The notes beneath the pieces were generated by a model. It did no database searches, was not told where the DNA came from, and saw only the letters and a list, made by a program, of their open reading frames with translations. A program made the position numbers and the translations under genes. Below, in pieces: positions 2,340-25,489 of a stretch of 54,474 bases of DNA. Positions within the stretch are counted from its first letter, which is position 1. Every line of letters starts with the position of its first letter. The DNA is from Micromonospora sp. CPCC 205371 (GTDB lineage Bacteria; Actinomycetota; Actinomycetes; Mycobacteriales; Micromonosporaceae), in contig NZ_JAIBNX010000004.1 in assembly GCF_026130045.1 (NCBI RefSeq), positions 1 through 54,474 on the forward strand, in the 5' to 3' direction.

Positions 2340-2349
2340 GGATGTGTCA
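2340..2349. promoter_or_regulatory. Candidate MarR operator upstream of the flavin monooxygenase
   Basis: GGATGTGTCA differs in one base from the TGAYRTRTCA palindrome seen before the MarR, DoxX, LLM, GtrA-like and NmrA genes. It lies 31 nt before the monooxygenase start. Binding by one of the two MarR proteins of this cluster is inference. Confidence 0.5.
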
Positions 2350-2379
2350 TATATCTCCGGGACGCGACGCTCGGAATAC

Positions 2380-3954
2380 ATGAACCATCATGCGGTTGAG
2401 ATCAATGTGCGATCAACGGTGGTGGTCATCGGCGGTGGCCAGGCGGGCCTGTCGGCGGCCTACCACCTCAAGCGACGCGGCTTCACCAGCGCTCTGACGC
2501 ACCCGGACGCCGATCGGACCTTCGTCGTGCTCGACGCCGAGCCCGCTCCCGGCGGGGCGTGGAGGCACCGCTGGCAGTCGCTACGGATGGCCACCGTCAA
2601 CGGGATCTTCGACCTGCCCGGCCTCGCCAAGCCGGCGATCGATCCCGACGAGCCCAGCCGCACGGCCGTGCCACGCTACTTCGCCGACTTCGAGGACCAC
2701 ACCGACCTGCCCATCCTGCGGCCGGTGACCGTCACCGCCGTACGCCGCGCCGGCACCGCCCCTGACGGCGACCTCATCGTCGAATCCAGCCGCGGCACCT
2801 GGCTCACCCGGGCGGTCATCAACGCCACGGGCACCTGGACCAACCCGGTCCGCCCGCACTACCCCGGACAGCACACCTTCACCGGACCCCAACCACACAC
2901 GCGCGATTACGTCTCGGCCGACCAGTTCGCCGGCCTGCGCGTCGCCGTGGTCGGCGGCGGCATCTCCGCGCTGCAGCAGCTCGAAGAGATCAGCCGGGTC
3001 GCCACCACCTTCTGGTACACCCGCCGCGAGCCGGTCTTCCGCGACGGCGCCTTCAACCCCGAGGTCGAGGGCCGCGAGATCATCGCCAAGGTGACCGCCG
3101 ACGTCGAAGCCGGCCGGCCCACCGGCAGCGTCGTCTCCTACACCGGCCTGGCCTGGACGCCGTACGCGCTGGCCGCCAAGGCGCGCGGCGCACTCGAACG
3201 CCGCCCGATGTTCACCGCGATCGAGCCCGGCGGCGTCCGCGAGGCGGACGGCACGTTCACCCCGATCGACGCGATCCTGTGGGCCACCGGCTTCAAGGCG
3301 GCCCTGGCTCATCTGGACCCGCTCGGGCTCCGCAACAGCCAGGGCGGCATCCGGATGGCCGGCACCCAGGTCGCTCGCGAGCCGCGCGTCCACCTGATCG
3401 GCTTCGGACCCTCACAGTCGACGGTCGGCGCCAATCGAGCCGGCCGAGCCGCGGTCACCACACTCGTCCGCTACCTCAACGAACACGGAAGGCAAACCAC
3501 GATGGACGGTAACAACGCCGGTCACACGCCGTACTCCCGCGACACGTTCCTCGACATATTCCGGGAGACGAAGTCGATCGCGGTGGTGGGCGCCTCCGAC
3601 GATCCCGCCAAGCCCGCCAACGCCATCCCCGCCTACCTCCAGGATCAGGGCTACCAGATCCTGCCGGTCAATCCACGGGGCGGCCAGATCCTCGGCCAGC
3701 CCGTGCACGCGTCACTGGACGAGATCGACGCGCCGATCGACGTCGTGGACGTGTTCCGGCCGCCGGCGCAGGCCGAGTCGGTAGCTCGCGCCGCCATCGC
3801 CGCCGGCGCCAAGGTCCTGTGGTTCCAGCCCGGAACCCACACCGAGCAGGCCGTACGCCTTGCCACCGACGCGGGGCTCACCGTCGTCGCCGGACACTGC
3901 ATGGGCCTGACGCACGCCAAGCTCGGCCTCGGACCCGGACCCTCCGCCAACTAA
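2380..3954 (+). CDS. Flavin monooxygenase fused to a CoA-binding (YccU-type) domain
   Basis: A 524-residue protein that reads as two in-frame proteins. Residues 1-374 are a flavin-dependent monooxygenase: FAD Rossmann motif GGGQAG near the N-terminus, the Baeyer-Villiger type fingerprint FxGxxxHxxxY (FTGPQPHTRDY, from about residue 167), a second dinucleotide motif GGGISA, and ILWATGFK. Residues 375-524 are a CoA-binding domain (SIAVVGASDDP, VNPRG, WFQPGTHTE, GHCMG) of the size of free YccU-like proteins. ATG 3502 (residue 375) has GGAAGG 9 nt upstream, so a free CoA-binding protein could also be made. Two separate genes joined by loss of a stop, or a sequencing slip, is the alternative. A candidate MarR operator lies just upstream. 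Confidence 0.85.
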   Translation: MNHHAVEINVRSTVVVIGGGQAGLSAAYHLKRRGFTSALTHPDADRTFVVLDAEPAPGGAWRHRWQSLRMATVNGIFDLPGLAKPAIDPDEPSRTAVPRYFADFEDHTDLPILRPVTVTAVRRAGTAPDGDLIVESSRGTWLTRAVINATGTWTNPVRPHYPGQHTFTGPQPHTRDYVSADQFAGLRVAVVGGGISALQQLEEISRVATTFWYTRREPVFRDGAFNPEVEGREIIAKVTADVEAGRPTGSVVSYTGLAWTPYALAAKARGALERRPMFTAIEPGGVREADGTFTPIDAILWATGFKAALAHLDPLGLRNSQGGIRMAGTQVAREPRVHLIGFGPSQSTVGANRAGRAAVTTLVRYLNEHGRQTTMDGNNAGHTPYSRDTFLDIFRETKSIAVVGASDDPAKPANAIPAYLQDQGYQILPVNPRGGQILGQPVHASLDEIDAPIDVVDVFRPPAQAESVARAAIAAGAKVLWFQPGTHTEQAVRLATDAGLTVVAGHCMGLTHAKLGLGPGPSAN

Positions 3955-4058: not shown

Positions 4059-4068
4059 TGATATGTCA
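4059..4068. promoter_or_regulatory. MarR operator in its own promoter
   Basis: TGATATGTCA fits the TGAYRTRTCA palindrome and ends 25 nt before the marR start. A TAAACT -10-like box at 4080-4085 would start transcription within a base or two of ATG 4094, so the message may be leaderless and the operator would cover the -35 region. This predicts autorepression. Confidence 0.6.
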
Positions 4069-4093
4069 AGAGCTTCCGGTAAACTTGTTCCAC

Positions 4094-4561
4094 ATGAGCG
4101 ACGAACCACACTGGCTGACCCCCGCCGAGCAGCACGCCTGGCGCAGCTTCGTCCGCCTGCACCAGAAGCTCTTCGCCACCCTGGTACGCGACCTGCAGGC
4201 GCACGCGAAGCTGTCCGGCGCCGACTTTGAGATCCTGGTCGCGCTCACCGACGTCCCGGAGGGGCGGCAGCGGTTCCAAGACCTGGCCAAGGCCATCGAC
4301 TGGGAGCAGAGCCGCCTGTCCCACCAGATCGCCCGGATGGCCAAACGCGGCCTGGTCGCGCGCGAAGAGTGCGCTGAGGACGGCCGCGGAGCCTTCGTCG
4401 TCATCACCGCGGCCGGCCGCAAGACCATCGAAGCCGCCGCGCCCCACCACGTCGCCACGGTCCGGCGGCTGGTCATCGACCCGCTCGGCCCGGACGACCT
4501 CGCCACCCTCGGCCGGATCTCCGGCCGCATCCTGGAAAACCTGGACAACGCAGCGCTCTGA
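4094..4561 (+). CDS. MarR-family transcriptional regulator
   Basis: A 155-residue winged-helix regulator. The helix-turn-helix and wing are clear ([46 protein letters not shown]). I start at ATG 4094; an upstream in-frame ATG at 4058 overlaps the operator. There is no good ribosome site, consistent with a leaderless message. It is strikingly similar along its full length to the MarR domain fused to an oxidoreductase at 6866-7333, so the two are paralogues made by local duplication. Its gene converges on doxX. The ligand is unknown; the neighbours suggest a quinone, aldehyde or other redox-active compound. Confidence 0.9.
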   Translation: MSDEPHWLTPAEQHAWRSFVRLHQKLFATLVRDLQAHAKLSGADFEILVALTDVPEGRQRFQDLAKAIDWEQSRLSHQIARMAKRGLVAREECAEDGRGAFVVITAAGRKTIEAAAPHHVATVRRLVIDPLGPDDLATLGRISGRILENLDNAAL

Positions 4562-4570
4562 GCACCGCGA

Positions 4571-4951
4571 TCAGCTGAATGAGTACGGGCCGAAGCGGCC
4601 CCAGACCACGATGCCGGCCAGCACGATCAGCACGAGGTTCATGACGATCGCCTGGTTTTCGTTGCGCCTGGCGTGAGTGATCGCCGCGCCGATCATTAAC
4701 AGCACCAGGCCCACGGCCGCAAGGGGCACGAGGACGGGGACGATGTCCAGCGCGGCGGGCAGGATCAACCCGATCGCGGCCAGCACCTCCAGCGCGCCGA
4801 TCATTTTGAGTGTGCCCGGCGAGAAGTCCTCGGTCCACGCCATGTTCGGCGAGGCGGCGAGCTTCTCCTTCGACTGGGCCAGCTTCGCACCGCCGGCGAC
4901 CAGGAACAGCGCCGCGAGCAGGCCAGCCACTATCCACAGGACGATGTTCAC
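4571..4951 (-). CDS. DoxX-family membrane protein
   Basis: A 126-residue integral membrane protein with four hydrophobic segments (IVLWIVAGLLAALFLVAGGAKL at the start, then MIGALEVLAAIGLIL, VLVPLAAVGLVLLMIGAAI and a final IVMNLVLIVLAGIVV), the DoxX/SURF4-like pattern. DoxX proteins are often coexpressed with oxidoreductases and have been linked to thiol or quinone stress responses. I start at GTG 4951, preceded by AGAGGG; the longer frame to 5041 runs through the promoter. It is transcribed divergently from the LLM gene, and a MarR-type operator lies in its promoter. Confidence 0.8.
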   Translation of the reverse strand: MNIVLWIVAGLLAALFLVAGGAKLAQSKEKLAASPNMAWTEDFSPGTLKMIGALEVLAAIGLILPAALDIVPVLVPLAAVGLVLLMIGAAITHARRNENQAIVMNLVLIVLAGIVVWGRFGPYSFS

Positions 4952-4974
4952 GCGAGCGCCCTCTTTTCGGCCAT
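4948..4974 (-). CDS. Possible 8-codon leader peptide before doxX
   Basis: ATG 4974 has GGGAG 8 nt upstream and opens a reading frame for MAEKRALA whose TGA overlaps the GTG of doxX (GTGA). Such an arrangement allows translational coupling. It is very short and could be chance. Confidence 0.3.
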   Translation of the reverse strand: MAEKRALA

Positions 4975-5008
4975 AGTTCTCGCTCCCCTGAAAGTATGAC
5001 GTGACATT

Positions 5009-5018
5009 TGATGTGTCA
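5009..5018. promoter_or_regulatory. MarR operator in the doxX promoter
   Basis: TGATGTGTCA matches the TGAYRTRTCA palindrome. On the minus strand it overlaps an ATGACA -35-like box, with CATACT at 4993-4998 as -10, reading toward doxX. Confidence 0.55.
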
Positions 5019-5077
5019 TGGACCTTACACCCCAGGTGCATGACGCTTCAAGTGGCTCAGGTCATCAGGGCTGCTAG

Positions 5078-5115
5078 TTGACATATCATGCATGTGGTAC
5101 ATAATTGATGTGTCA
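5078..5115 (+). promoter_or_regulatory. LLM promoter with two MarR operators
   Basis: TTGACA (5078-5083) and CATAAT (5100-5105) are spaced by 16 nt. Palindromes TGACATATCA (5079-5088) and TGATGTGTCA (5106-5115) overlap the -35 and follow the -10, centres 27 bp apart. Both fit the same consensus as the sites before marR, doxX and nmrA. This is a textbook repressor layout; the identity of the repressor is inferred. Confidence 0.65.
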
Positions 5116-5138: not shown

Positions 5139-6170
5139 ATGTCAGACCTCACGTTCGGCCTCGACACCTTCGGCGACGTACCAGAGGACGGCTCCGGTGC
5201 TCTTGTGTCCTACGCCGCCGCCATCCGGCAGGTCGTCGACGAAGCGGTACTGGCCGACGAACTGGGCGTCGACGCCCTCGCGCTCGGGGAGCACCACCGA
5301 CCGGAGTACTCGATCTCCACCCCGGAGACGGTGCTGGCCGGCATCGCGACCCGCACCTCACGGATCAAGCTCGCGTCGGGCGTCACCGTGCTCAGCTCCG
5401 ACGACCCGGTCCGCGTCTTCCAGCGCTTCGCCACCGTCGATGCGCTCTCGAACGGCCGCGCCGAGGTCATCCTCGGCCGCGGCTCGTTCACCGAGTCCTT
5501 CCCCCTGTTCGGCTACGACCTGGCCGACTACGACAAGCTGTTCGAGGAGAAGATCGAACTGTTCGTCAAGCTGCTGGACGAAAAGCCGGTGACCTGGAAC
5601 GGCACCATGCGGCCGGCGCTGCGGGATGCCGACGTCTTCCCCAAGACCGAATCCGGGCGGCTGACCACCTGGGTGGGTGTCGGCGGCTCACCACAGTCGG
5701 TCATCCGCACCGCCCACTACGGCCTGCCCCTCATGCTGGCCATCATCGGCGGGCCGCCCAAGCGCTTCGCCGGCTACGTCGACCTCTACAGGCGCGCCAC
5801 CGAGCAGCTCGGCACCACCGCCCACCCGGTCGGCATGCACTCCCCCGGCTTCATCGCCGACACCGACGAAGAGGCCAAGCGGATCGTCTGGCCGCGGTAC
5901 CGGGTCATCCGCGACCGCATCGGCGCCCAGCGCGGCTGGCCACCGGTGCGCCGAGAGGCGTTCGACGCCGACGTCGAGCACGGCTCGCTGTACATCGGCT
6001 CACCGGAGACGGTCGCCCGCAGGATCGCCGGCGCCATCAAGGCTGTCGGCGTCGGCCGGTTCGACCTGATCTACACCACCGGCTCGCTGCCAACCAGCGC
6101 TCGCCTGCGCGCCGTCGAGCTCTACGGCAGCAAGGTGATCCCCATGGTCCGCGACATCCTCGCCGACTGA
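5139..6170 (+). CDS. LLM-class (luciferase-like) flavin/F420-dependent oxidoreductase
   Basis: A 343-residue TIM-barrel enzyme of the bacterial luciferase superfamily. Typical blocks are [46 protein letters not shown] and [12 protein letters not shown], then a C-terminal [12 protein letters not shown]. Members use FMNH2 or reduced F420; the sequence does not decide which, though the next gene resembles an F420:NADP oxidoreductase. ATG 5139 has GGGAG 7 nt upstream. It begins an operon, the next gene starting 14 nt after its stop. Two palindromic operators lie in its promoter. Confidence 0.88.
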
Positions 6171-6184
6171 CCCTGGAGCCCGAC

Positions 6185-7333
6185 ATGAACGACACCATCG
6201 GTATCCTGGGAGCCGGCAAGATGGGCACCGTGCTGGCCAGGCTCGCCCTCGCCGCCGGGTACCGCGTGCTCATCGCCGGCTCCGGCGACCCCGCGAAGAT
6301 CGCCCTCACCATCGAAGTGCTGACACCCGGAGCGGTCGCTACCACCGCCACCGAGGCCGCCGCGCACGCCGATCTGGTGATTCTCGCCCTCCCCCTCGGC
6401 AAGTACCGCAGCCTTCCCGTGGAAGCGTTGCGCGGCAAGCTCGTCATCGACGCCATGAACTACTGGTGGGAGGTCGACGGCATCCGCGACGACCTGACCG
6501 ATCCACGCACCTCCTCCAGCGAGACGGTGCAGGCGTTCCTGACCGGCTCCCGCGTCGTCAAGGCGTTCAACCACGTCGGCTATCACGACATCGAAGACAA
6601 GGCCCGCACCGCCGGACAGCCCGGACGTATCGCCGTCGCCATCGCCGGCGACAATCCCGACGACCTCGCCACCGTAGCGTCGCTTGTGGACAATTTCGGC
6701 TTCGAGCCTGTCCTGGCCGGCCCTCTTGCCGAGGGCATCCGCATGGAACCCGGCACCGAGCTGTTCGGCGCCGACGTCGACGCCGACGAGGTACGGGCGC
6801 GGCTCGACCGCTTCCCCGACACCGAGCGCGGGCAGACCATCGCCCGCGCCCGCGCCGGAAGCGCGGTGGCCGGCCGACCGCACTGGCTCGCGCCTGCCGA
6901 GGAGTGCGCCTGGCGCAGCTTGGTCCGCCTGCACTACAAGCTGTTCGCCACCATGGGGCGTGACCTTCAGGCACACGCCAAGCTGTCCGGCGCCGACTTC
7001 GCGATCCTGGTCGCGCTCACCGACGTCCCGCGGGGACGGCAACGATTCCAGGAACTAGCCAAGACCATCGACTGGGCGCAGAGCCGCCTATCCCACCAGA
7101 TCGCCCGGATGATCAGACGTGGTCTGGTGGCCCGGGAAGAGTGTCCCGACGACGGCCGCGGCGCGTTCGTCGCCATCACCCCCGCCGGCCGCAGGGCCAT
7201 CGAAGCCGCCGCGCCTCACCACGTCGCCACCATCCGACGCCTGGTCATCGACCCGCTGGGCCCAGACGACCTGACCGCCCTCGCCCAGATCTCCGGTCGC
7301 ATCCTGGAGCAGTTGGACGCCGCGGCGCCCTGA
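6185..7333 (+). CDS. F420/NADP-oxidoreductase-like domain fused to a MarR regulator
   Basis: A 382-residue protein. Residues 1 to about 222 are a Rossmann-fold NADP-binding domain of the F420-dependent NADP oxidoreductase type ([55 protein letters not shown]). Residues from about 228 are a full MarR domain nearly identical in layout to the free MarR at 4094-4561. The paralogue's start methionine aligns with Val228, encoded by an in-frame GTG at 6866 with GGAAG 4 nt upstream, so a free MarR could also be produced. ATG 6185 has TGGAG upstream. I know of no common family with this order. A missed stop or frameshift at the junction is the main alternative. Confidence 0.85.
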
Positions 7334-7372: not shown

Positions 7373-9025
7373 ATGGGTGGCACTCAGATGGTCGACGACC
7401 TGGACATGGACTCTATCTCCATCGAGGTGGACGCGGCCGCCAGTATGGGGCCGTTCCGGCCGATCCACCGGTTCTTCGGCGCCGACGAGCCCAACTACGC
7501 GTACCTGCCCGATGGGCTGGCCCTGCTCGCTGAGATCGGGCGGCTCGGCCCGGCGCAGGCGTACTTTCGCACCCACAGCCTGATGGTCTCCGGAGACGGC
7601 ACGCCCGCGCTCAAGTGGGGCTCGACCAACATGTACACAGAGGACGCTGGCGGCAACCCGGTCTACGACTGGACAATCGTCGACCGCATCTTCGACGCGT
7701 ACCTCGCCAACGGCGTCAAACCCTACACGCAGATCGGTTTCATGCCGCAGGCACTGTCGACGCGTCCCGAGCCGTACCAGCACCACTGGCGGCCGGGCGA
7801 CCCATACGAAGACATATTCACCGGCTGGGCGTATCCCCCGAAGGACTACGACGCGTGGCGTGAACTGGTGTACCGGTGGGTCGCGCACTGCGTCGAACGC
7901 TACGGCCGGGCCGAGGTGGAGCAGTGGTACTGGCAGGTGTGGAACGAGGCCAACCCGGCGGACGCGTACTGGCGCGGCACACCGGAGGAGTTCCGCAAGC
8001 TACACGACTACGCGATCGACGGGGTCCGGCGGGCGCTGCCAACCGCGCGGGTGGGCGGTCCGGACACCGCCGGACCGGGCGGCCAGTGGATGCGCGACTT
8101 TCTCGAACACTGCCTGCGCGGCGCCAACCACGCCACCGGTGGCACCGGCACGCCGCTGGACTTCGTCTCGTTCCACGCCAAGGGCGCGCCGACCGTGGTG
8201 GACGGCCGGGTGCGGATGGGCCTCGCGCAGCAGCTGCGCGACGTCGACGAGGGCTTCGCCATCGTCGCTTCCTATCCCGAACTGCGTGACACACCTATCG
8301 TCATCGGGGAGTTCGACCCGGATGGCTGCGCCGCGTGCAGCGTCACGGTCTACCCGCAGAACGCGTACCGGAACACCGAACTGTATGCCAGCTACACGGC
8401 GGCCAGCTTCGCCCGCGTACACGATCTGGCCGATCGGCGGGGCGTGCGGTTGGATGGCGCTTTGACGTGGTCCTTCGAGTTCGAGGGCGAGCCGGCGTTC
8501 GCCGGCTTCCGCGCCCTCGCGACCACCGGTGGCATCCCGCTGCCCGTCTTCAACGTCTTCCGGATGTTCGGCGCGCTGACCGGCGAACGGGTCGCGGTGC
8601 GCAGCAGCGGCGAAATCGACCTGGACACCGTCCTTGCGGAAGGGGTCCGCGGACCCCGCCCGGACGTATCCGCGGTCGCCGCCGTCGACAATGGACAGGT
8701 GGCCGTGTTGCTGTGGAATTACCACGACGATGAGGTGCCCGCGCCGGAAACGCCCGTCGAGCTCACCGTGACGAACTTGCCGGCACCGTCCGCGCCGGTG
8801 CGACTGGTCGAGTACCGGGTCGACGCCCGCCACGGCAACGCGCACACCGCTTGGCGGGCGCTGGGCGCGCCGTCCCGTCCGACCGACGCCCAACTGGCCG
8901 AACTGCGCGAGGCCGGTCGGCTCACACCGCTTGACGACCCGCGGCCGGTCCAGTCGACGGGCCGCACCGTGAAGATCGCCACTCGACTGCCCCGACAGAG
9001 CGTCGCCCTGATGCTCCTCACCTGA
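7373..9025 (+). CDS. GH39-type beta-xylosidase-like glycoside hydrolase, cytoplasmic
   Basis: A 550-residue protein without a signal peptide. Its (beta/alpha)8 domain carries the clan GH-A motifs WNEAN (general acid/base Glu192) and IGEFDPDG (nucleophile Glu313), with RFFGADEPNY and ALTWSFEFEGE nearby, as in GH39 beta-xylosidases. The C-terminal roughly 130 residues form a beta-sandwich. The start at 7373 has no clear ribosome site and a CATGAT box lies just upstream, so it may be leaderless; ATG 7388 is an alternative. The likely role is hydrolysis of imported oligosaccharides; the exact sugar is not determinable here. Confidence 0.85.
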   Translation: MGGTQMVDDLDMDSISIEVDAAASMGPFRPIHRFFGADEPNYAYLPDGLALLAEIGRLGPAQAYFRTHSLMVSGDGTPALKWGSTNMYTEDAGGNPVYDWTIVDRIFDAYLANGVKPYTQIGFMPQALSTRPEPYQHHWRPGDPYEDIFTGWAYPPKDYDAWRELVYRWVAHCVERYGRAEVEQWYWQVWNEANPADAYWRGTPEEFRKLHDYAIDGVRRALPTARVGGPDTAGPGGQWMRDFLEHCLRGANHATGGTGTPLDFVSFHAKGAPTVVDGRVRMGLAQQLRDVDEGFAIVASYPELRDTPIVIGEFDPDGCAACSVTVYPQNAYRNTELYASYTAASFARVHDLADRRGVRLDGALTWSFEFEGEPAFAGFRALATTGGIPLPVFNVFRMFGALTGERVAVRSSGEIDLDTVLAEGVRGPRPDVSAVAAVDNGQVAVLLWNYHDDEVPAPETPVELTVTNLPAPSAPVRLVEYRVDARHGNAHTAWRALGAPSRPTDAQLAELREAGRLTPLDDPRPVQSTGRTVKIATRLPRQSVALMLLT

Positions 9026-9155: not shown

Positions 9156-10754
9156 ATGAACGAACCGAAGCGAACGCGCCGTCGATGGCGCGTGGCGAGC
9201 GGTGCCGTCCTGCTTGCTGGCGGTCTCGTCCTGGTGCCGGGCACCGCCGCGCAGGCCGCGCCCACTCGGTACGAGGCCGAAACCTCCCCGGCGGTCTGCA
9301 TGGGCACGATCGACAGCAACTGGTCCGGCTACTCGGGCTCCGGCTTCTGCAACGGCACCAACGCCGCAGGCGCCTACGCCCAGGTCACCGTGAACGCCTC
9401 AGCCGCCGGCACAGCCACGCTGGGCGTGCGGTTCGCCAACGGCACCACGGCGGCGCGCGCCGCCGACCTGATCGTCAACGGCTCCACCGTCCAAAATGTA
9501 GCGTTCGAGGGCACCGGGGCATGGTCGACCTGGGTGACCAAGACGCTGACCGTACCGGTGAACGCCGGCACCAACACCATCCGGCTCAATCCCACCCTCT
9601 CGGCTGGGCTAGCCAATGTCGACTACGTCGACTTCGAGGTCGGCGGAACGACGCCGCCAACCAACGCGCTGTACGTGGCGACCAACGGCAACGACAGCAA
9701 CGCGGGCACGTTGAGCGCGCCGCTGGCGACCATCCAGCGGGCGGTCGACCTGGCCCAGCCCGGCCACACCATCTACATCCGTGGCGGCACCTACGCCCCG
9801 AGCACCAACATCCAGATCCTGAAGAACGGCACGTCGAGCGCGCCCATCACGATGCGCAACTACAACAACGAGCGCGTGATCATCGACGGCGAGAACATGC
9901 CGTACACGCCGGGCGCGGTCGACTCCAGCATCCCCCGGCCGGAGCGCGGCGCCATCCACATCGAGGGCGACTACTGGCGGCTCATCGGCCTGGAGATCAT
10001 CCACGGCCCGTACGGCGTCTTCGGCCTGGACTCCAGCAACAACTACTACGAGCGGCTGGTCACCCGCGACAACTACGAGTCCGGCTTCCACCTGTTCCTG
10101 ACCTCCAGCAACAACCAGATCATCAACCTCGACTCGTACGGCAACTACGACCCGCGCAGCAACGGGGAGAGCGCCGACGGCCTGGCCATCAAGGAGGGCT
10201 CGGGCACCGGCAACGTCGTACGCGGCGCCCGGCTTTGGAACAACTCCGACGACGGGCTGGACTGGTGGATGTTCTCCTCGCCCATCCTGGTGGAGAACAG
10301 CCTGGCATGGGGCAACGGCTTCAACCGCTGGAACCTGCCGAACTTCACCGGTGACGGCAACGGCTTCAAGCTCGGTGGCAACAGCGTGGTCGGCAACCAC
10401 ACCGTGCGCAACAGCATGACGTGGGACAACGCGGTCAGCGGCTTCATCGACAACAACAACCCCGGCCAGCACCGGATCGAACGCTGCACCGCGTGGGACA
10501 ACCCCGGCACCGGGTTCGACTTCGACCGTTCCGACAGCACCCTGACGGGCAACCTGTCGGTCGCCAACGGCACCGCCTTCTCGTACGGGCCGAACTCGAG
10601 CGGCAGCGGCAACTCGTGGGACATCGGCGGCAGCTGGTCGCTGGCCAATACCAACCCCAGCACCATCACCGGGCCGCGCAACGCCGACGGCTCGATACCG
10701 TCCTCGACGTTCCTGCGCCCATCCAACGGCGCCGACGTCGGAGCACGGTTCTGA
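9156..10754 (+). CDS. Secreted CBM35-PL9 pectate lyase-like protein
   Basis: A 532-residue exported protein. Order: signal peptide 1 to about 38 (RRRWRV then a hydrophobic run ending TAAQA), CBM35 about 40-160 with its FCNGTNAAGAY block, a short TTPPT linker, then a right-handed parallel beta-helix about 168-532 (YVATNGNDSNAGTLSAPLAT opening, repeated Asn ladders such as SSNNQIINLDSYGNYD, and DGLDWWMFSSPILVENSLAWGNG). This opening and helix are characteristic of family 9 pectate lyases, which cleave polygalacturonan by beta-elimination using a lysine and calcium. GAAAGG precedes the start. A LacI-type operator lies upstream and a strong hairpin follows. Confidence 0.85.
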   Translation: MNEPKRTRRRWRVASGAVLLAGGLVLVPGTAAQAAPTRYEAETSPAVCMGTIDSNWSGYSGSGFCNGTNAAGAYAQVTVNASAAGTATLGVRFANGTTAARAADLIVNGSTVQNVAFEGTGAWSTWVTKTLTVPVNAGTNTIRLNPTLSAGLANVDYVDFEVGGTTPPTNALYVATNGNDSNAGTLSAPLATIQRAVDLAQPGHTIYIRGGTYAPSTNIQILKNGTSSAPITMRNYNNERVIIDGENMPYTPGAVDSSIPRPERGAIHIEGDYWRLIGLEIIHGPYGVFGLDSSNNYYERLVTRDNYESGFHLFLTSSNNQIINLDSYGNYDPRSNGESADGLAIKEGSGTGNVVRGARLWNNSDDGLDWWMFSSPILVENSLAWGNGFNRWNLPNFTGDGNGFKLGGNSVVGNHTVRNSMTWDNAVSGFIDNNNPGQHRIERCTAWDNPGTGFDFDRSDSTLTGNLSVANGTAFSYGPNSSGSGNSWDIGGSWSLANTNPSTITGPRNADGSIPSSTFLRPSNGADVGARF

Positions 10755-24796: not shown

Positions 24797-24849
24797 TTGA
24801 CATGTCATGCACCTCTCCGGGTAAGGTGGCGACATCACCTGACATGTCA
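24797..24849 (+). promoter_or_regulatory. Two perfect TGACATGTCA palindromes before the GtrA-like gene
   Basis: TGACATGTCA occurs exactly at 24798-24807 and 24840-24849, centres 42 bp (four helical turns) apart. The first overlaps a TTGACA -35 box at 24797-24802. They are the best matches in the window to the operator class of the 2-7 kb MarR cluster, and the next gene downstream begins at 24906. Confidence 0.65.
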
Positions 24850-25447: not shown

Positions 25448-25489
25448 TTGACACGTCATGCATTGCATGGCAAGGTACATGACGTATCA
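25448..25489 (+). promoter_or_regulatory. nmrA promoter region with two MarR-type operators
   Basis: TGACACGTCA (25449-25458) and TGACGTATCA (25480-25489) flank the promoter, centres 31 bp apart. The first overlaps TTGACA at 25448-25453. The stretch TTGACA..TCATGCAT and GGTACAT is shared with the LLM promoter at 5078-5104, so the two promoters look related by descent. Confidence 0.65.

Follow-up and report, generated by a model that had tools for sequence, protein, structure and literature searches.

The NADH-sensing repressor Rex combines a winged helix and a dinucleotide-binding domain in one chain. The protein described here also holds both domain kinds in one chain and would resemble Rex if it senses a cofactor, but the order of the domains in Rex is the reverse and Rex is not a combination of MarR and PF03807. 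The N-terminal, FNO-like part of the protein is closest in fold to STEAP NADPH-oxidoreductase domains, SMa0349, a putative F420-dependent NADP reductase of Arthrobacter and T. fusca FNO, an uncharacterised protein being among the neighbours. The structures 5n2i (T. fusca FNO), 2vns and 2yjz (STEAP), 3dtt and 4huj (SMa0349) have the Rossmann fold and the family in common with this part, at 22–28% sequence identity in the fold search; unlike for the fusion, their descriptions name no DNA-binding domain. The best PDB relatives of the C-terminal MarR part are AbsC (3zmd, 99.3 bits) and SCO3205 (93.6 bits) of Streptomyces coelicolor, both of which are free-standing single-domain proteins, unlike the fused MarR. 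We take 3zpl to be SCO3205, which agrees with the residue numbering.

PMC3737563 identifies 3zmd as AbsC, has salicylate held by Trp18 and His120 of that protein (the equivalent pair in SCO3205 being Trp16 and His119) and gives TCAA as a half-site of the AbsC/SCO3205-type operator. The fused MarR has the equivalent Trp/His ligand-pocket pair. Our main reading, to which we give a probability of about 0.5, is that the locus carries a genuine, recent and lineage-specific fusion in which a reductase-tethered MarR (auto)represses its own operon.

A dinucleotide-binding domain and a MarR regulator in one frame

In the window, by which we mean the whole 54,474-nucleotide stretch of Micromonospora sp. 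CPCC 205371 that was analysed, positions 6185–7333 of the + strand are translated as a single open frame of 382 amino acids without a stop. PF03807 (F420_oxidored) covers fusion residues 4–93 with 65.8 bits against a Pfam cut-off of 21.6, and PF12802 (MarR_2) covers residues 267–325 with 39.9 bits against 27. The fusion is thus a complete FNO-type domain followed by a complete MarR in one frame, as the first-pass annotation had read it. The free MarR paralogue that it had placed in the same cluster is also there, 80% identical to the fused copy; the 1.6 kb given as its distance holds from the end of the paralogue to the start of the fusion, and the distance to the MarR part is 2.3 kb. The features are as follows:

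6185–6856, + strand: FNO-like dinucleotide-binding domain (PF03807, F420_oxidored/STEAP-type; Pfam), residues 1–224
6857–6892, + strand: junction or linker of about 12 residues (225–236), including GTG 6866 (sequence, AF2)
6866–7333, + strand: MarR2, a complete MarR regulator of AbsC/SCO3205 type, C-terminal to the FNO part (Pfam, alignment)
5139–6170, + strand: LLM, a luciferase-like monooxygenase (PF00296), which opens the operon and lies 14 bp 5' of the fusion
4094–4561, + strand: MarR1, the free paralogue, which probably starts at 4094 rather than 4058 (homologues begin at the same Met)
4571–5041, − strand: DoxX_2 protein gene (extent of the longest ORF; translation may begin further in)

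In the AF2 models a helix ends at 224–225, a break follows and MarR helix 1 begins at 237. As one model was built with MarR rows and the other with FNO rows (mean pLDDT 68.3 and 63.4, low values), they say nothing on the relative placement of the domains. With MarR rows, the predicted linker lies between helices 214–224 and 237–265, with pLDDT below 50 at 225–229.

Relatives of the FNO part were taken from a peptide-pattern scan of 84,980 genomes, from which the own genome was perhaps left out; the best 80 of 560 relatives were kept. Aligned with 79 of these 80 (L052, whose match ran through a stop, was omitted), the FNO part deviates from columns conserved at more than 90% at T142 and E174 only. 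Compared with the orthologue from the same genus, dN is 0.066 and dS 0.50, the nucleotide differences falling chiefly at third positions (19, 11 and 65 at the first, second and third). The score against the NpdG equivalog (NCBIfam TIGR01915) is 37.9, below the cut-off of 149.8, so F420 use by the FNO part is not established. An F420-specific role is unsupported also by the nearest folds, where STEAP and an uncharacterised protein stand beside F420:NADP oxidoreductases.

MarR2 aligns over its full length with MarR1 and nine other free homologues, with the N- and C-terminal helices complete. W243 and H346 of the fusion (MarR2 residues 16 and 119) are nearly invariant in the aligned set and align with Trp18/His120 of AbsC and Trp16/His119 of SCO3205, the numbering offsets agreeing in both PDB alignments. 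Since this pocket pair is kept, the MarR part is equipped for induction in the ordinary MarR way and needs no FNO sensor. That bears on the idea, also raised at first pass, of a transcription factor in which DNA binding by MarR depends on NADP(H) or F420 bound at the FNO part. A complete MarR whose N-terminal helix carries an intact dinucleotide-binding domain is what such a sensor would look like, and the operon contains a luciferase-like monooxygenase and has operator-like sites at its own promoter. We nevertheless consider direct redox sensing improbable: the MarR part keeps the AbsC-type salicylate-binding pair as its own ligand pocket, confidence in the predicted linker is low, the FNO part is not an NpdG equivalog and the genomes searched show no cross-species conservation that would indicate selection for coupling.

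Between MarR1 and MarR2, dN is 0.124 and dS 0.41, again with differences chiefly at third positions (20, 15 and 42), and with dN below dS both parts of the fusion look constrained. Of the columns invariant among the other nine free homologues, three are changed in MarR2 (the start Met, Q240E and E298A) and none in MarR1. The QSRLSHQ segment is kept in MarR2; A298, which is Glu in nine of nine, adjoins it, and with these departures at A298 and E240 the DNA binding of MarR2 could have changed. A 14-protein tree pairs MarR1 with MarR2 as sisters, weakly supported (80/79), on branches of length 0.044 and 0.24, respectively. MarR1 is probably the sister copy of MarR2, and the tree, whose support is not strong, is what one would expect if the gene had been duplicated in this lineage and MarR2 had since changed faster. 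The roughly fivefold longer branch, the changed family-invariant positions and the presence of a free MarR1 would also suit a neutral young fusion, in which the reductase is functional while the MarR part, a mere duplicate, drifts and binds DNA less well; this we hold to be unlikely, as dN/dS against MarR1 is still about 0.3, the frame is undamaged and QSRLSHQ is intact.

Nine annotated homologues of MarR1 are 62–82% identical to it, and at none of these nine loci is an FNO match joined to the homologue. A DoxX gene lies near the MarR1 homologue in four of the nine (L133, L134, L135 and L078).

Distribution of the fusion and its junction

FNO is joined to MarR in none of the 80 loci kept as the best of the 560 scan relatives. 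All 80 stop before any MarR, at the equivalents of fusion residues 221–260 (lengths of 220–266 aa when counted slightly differently), and five stop exactly at the equivalent of residue 225; the stop codon is TGA in 50, TAG in 25 and TAA in 5. It was for these 80 scan loci that ends were traced to actual stops. Several apparent exceptions were rejected. A seeming 163-aa tail in L052 is preceded by a stop directly after FNO, matches extending as far as query residues 246–283 in L042, L057, L062 and L094 come with a stop shortly 3' of FNO, and a MarR about 190 bases downstream in L088 is a separate gene, 41% identical.

The same family was searched in 354 genomes, of which 163 (own included) have a match with E of 1e-50 or better, and among the matches listed no row besides the window's own spans FNO and MarR; any fusion with a similar MarR should score above the weak end of this search. 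Rows with query ends up to 262 were rejected on account of in-frame stops or because they fall short of MarR. Eight of 396 phylum genomes (own included) match at E 1e-45 or better, none of them fused apart from the window's own. These family and phylum searches are sensitive to a fusion with a similar MarR and blind to FNO fused to an unlike domain. The MarR part alone, searched against 394 class genomes, gave one genome besides its own, with the MarR in an open frame of 182 aa. No FNO-MarR fusion was found in the open-access papers searched. In the nearest relative, from the same genus and 86% identical, the orthologous FNO gene is free-standing, and DNA homology with it ends exactly at 6856, directly 5' of the GGA codon for residue 225. 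An origin by frameshift was dropped as unnecessary because the FNO homology continues in frame to 6856.

The fusion therefore joins two known kinds of protein and is seen in a single genome, no family being seen; a conserved two-domain family would call for more than one. Here the first-pass annotation, which knew of no named family with this domain order, agrees with the genome searches made. It had also named, as evidence against a fusion, a consistent separation of the two genes in relatives: this is what all 80 scan loci show, although the frame itself is not refuted. As all examined relatives are unfused, the event is confined to one genome and the junction could rest on one wrong base. 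From these comparisons it looks like a recent one-off event.

Codon 225 (GGA, 6857–6859) is one substitution away from TGA, and the source is one genome in a draft of 481 contigs; at this junction natural stop loss and sequencing error are indistinguishable. The alternative is two separate proteins: an error of sequencing or assembly would mask an FNO stop (for example TGA at 6857–6859), and MarR2 would be translated by coupling from GTG 6866. A single wrong base at 6857 would suffice to hide the commonest stop of the family, five scan relatives stop at this very position, FNO is free-standing in every one of the 80, and GTG 6866 aligns with the ATG of MarR1 and the Met of the nine other aligned free homologues. 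Against it are the open frame as assembled and the ribosome-binding site. GGAAG at 6857–6861, 5' of the GTG as the first-pass annotation had stated, is SD-like (−3.5 kcal/mol), but its score is equalled or beaten by 47 of 129 internal in-frame ATG/GTG codons and is no better than chance. The promoter pattern of MarR1 (operator, TAAACT, ATG) is absent 5' of GTG 6866 as well, so a separate MarR2 start there has no sequence support, and neither has the proposal that fused and free forms are both made. Translational coupling could operate if the stop were present. On balance we regard separate proteins as somewhat unlikely.

A second gene pair of the cluster also reads through. Positions 2344–3954 encode a flavin monooxygenase fused in frame to a CoA_binding_2 domain, 2.2 kb upstream of the FNO-MarR fusion (gene end to gene start). 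Its junction is near 3487–3502, where GGAAGG at 3487 precedes an internal ATG at 3502. In 200 family genomes, 81 (own included) match the monooxygenase gene at E 1e-100 or better, and the CoA_binding_2 part is covered in none of the 80 non-own matches; 11 of 12 inspected loci end within 20 residues after the monooxygenase, and the match in L159 ran through a stop. That one cluster holds two unique fusions points either to an island rearranged recently or to errors in the draft assembly. The second is unusual and counts against a genuine fusion and for separate proteins; it would, however, be rare for two independent errors to remove stops within 5 kb, which counts against separate proteins in turn.

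Operator-like palindromes and proposed regulation

In 78 of the 80 scan relatives the gene directly 5' of FNO, on the same strand, is an LLM, and a divergent MarR is present within 3 kb in 55 of the 74 loci having at least 3.3 kb upstream. This divergent MarR, about 40% identical to MarR2, is missing in the window, where MarR1 and the DoxX_2 gene are in its place. Between the divergent marR and the LLM-FNO operon there is a TTGACATGTCAA-like (TGACATGTCA-like) palindrome in 57 of 57 testable loci, testable meaning those of the 80 with a divergent MarR and an LLM start within 900 bp (23 dropped); as many of the species are related, the 57 are not independent events. Relative to TGACATGTCA, 21 are exact, 33 have one mismatch and three have two, whereas in mononucleotide shuffles the best match has one mismatch in 0.1% and two in 3%. 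The SCO3205 consensus TTnAAnnnTCAA differs from TTGACATGTCAA of the LLM-FNO loci in the fifth base. Operator-like sites around the window's operon are as follows:

5079–5115, + strand: two operator-like palindromes at the LLM-FNO-MarR2 promoter, TGACATATCA at 5079 and TGATGTGTCA at 5106
4059–4085, + strand: operator-like TGATATGTCA (4059–4068) with a TAAACT −10-like box (4080–4085), directly 5' of MarR1
5009–5018, + strand: operator-like TGATGTGTCA, within the longest DoxX ORF and close to where this ORF starts

In the same-genus relative, TGACATGTCA and TGACGTGTCA are 27 bp apart before LLM, and the sites at 5079 and 5106 have identical spacing in the orthologous place. This conserved spacing and the 57-locus palindrome are the more independent indications of an operator. 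By comparison, TGAYRYRTCA occurs 8 times in the window against 0.55, a count that is partly circular because the pattern was widened after the window sites were seen, and plain TGACATGTCA with up to two mismatches gives 14 matches against 12.9 expected, not significant by itself.

Five of the seven MarR1 homologues printed have TGACATGTCA followed by a TAAACT/TAGACT-like box, one has a variant and one has none. L137 and L138, both MarR1-homologue loci, are without an exact or near-exact palindrome. As the −10-like box is 8 bases before the MarR1 ATG, the leader is probably very short or absent. Imperfect TGAC/GTCA repeats (4997, 5002 and 5009) lie in 4997–5060, inside the longest DoxX ORF, whose true start is therefore probably downstream of 5041 on the − strand.

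With no MarR1-type pattern before 6866 and with sites at the LLM promoter, MarR2 would most simply be co-transcribed with the LLM-FNO operon. Autoregulation is proposed mainly because the promoter of this operon carries operator-like sites; in relatives the palindromes adjoin a different MarR (about 40% identical), so that binding of MarR2 to those at 5079 and 5106 is a presumption carried across from one regulator to another. For the genuine, recent fusion that we favour, the neighbouring marR would have been duplicated and one copy placed directly behind the FNO of the LLM-FNO operon. Loss of the FNO stop codon would have left the last gene of the operon encoding FNO-linker-MarR; the stop would then be truly absent in the organism and the fusion protein made whole. 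Most likely NAD(P) binding is retained by the FNO part, which would serve LLM as its reductase, while the MarR part would dimerise and (auto)repress the operon through the two palindromes, for which free MarR1 perhaps competes. A small aromatic ligand bound in the ordinary MarR pocket would lift the repression; such a ligand, like any coupling to the cofactor, is presumed here. A one-component redox regulator in the making, in which cofactor occupancy or turnover of FNO directly sets transcription of its own LLM-FNO operon, we consider improbable, to the same degree as redox sensing.

If the junction is real, an enzyme has been joined to the likely repressor of its own operon and is caught at the single-genome stage with its free parents still present: MarR1 alongside, and FNO as a separate gene in a sister species. 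How an operon turns into a one-component regulator could then be tested directly. The conserved TTGACATGTCAA-like palindrome also offers a testable regulatory code for the widespread actinobacterial LLM-FNO-MarR cassette, of which no description was seen in the open-access papers searched on this point. One or more LLMs with an FNO-like reductase form a cassette in 78 of the 80 Actinobacteria loci L025–L104, often with a divergent MarR and a palindrome.

A genome-wide search for strict palindromes found one place outside the window, C454:21179, which overlaps the start of a gene read as a PadR-like regulator. Within the window, four more operator-like palindromes occur in pairs at 24798–24849 and 25449–25489, preceding a 183-aa ORF (24891, with a GtrA-type membrane protein-like reading) and an NmrA-like gene (25529), respectively, and suggesting that the same regulator or regulators may act there.

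In Saccharothrix deserti (L078, 3476–3922) the LLM 5' of FNO matches residues 1–48 and 196–341 only, within 450 bases, and this gene seems to be internally deleted. The redox cassette of the window is flanked by carbohydrate-active genes (66–2276, 7373–9025 and 9156–10754; GH43 with CBM35, GH39 and a Pel9A-like beta-helix), placed as if inserted in a polysaccharide cluster.
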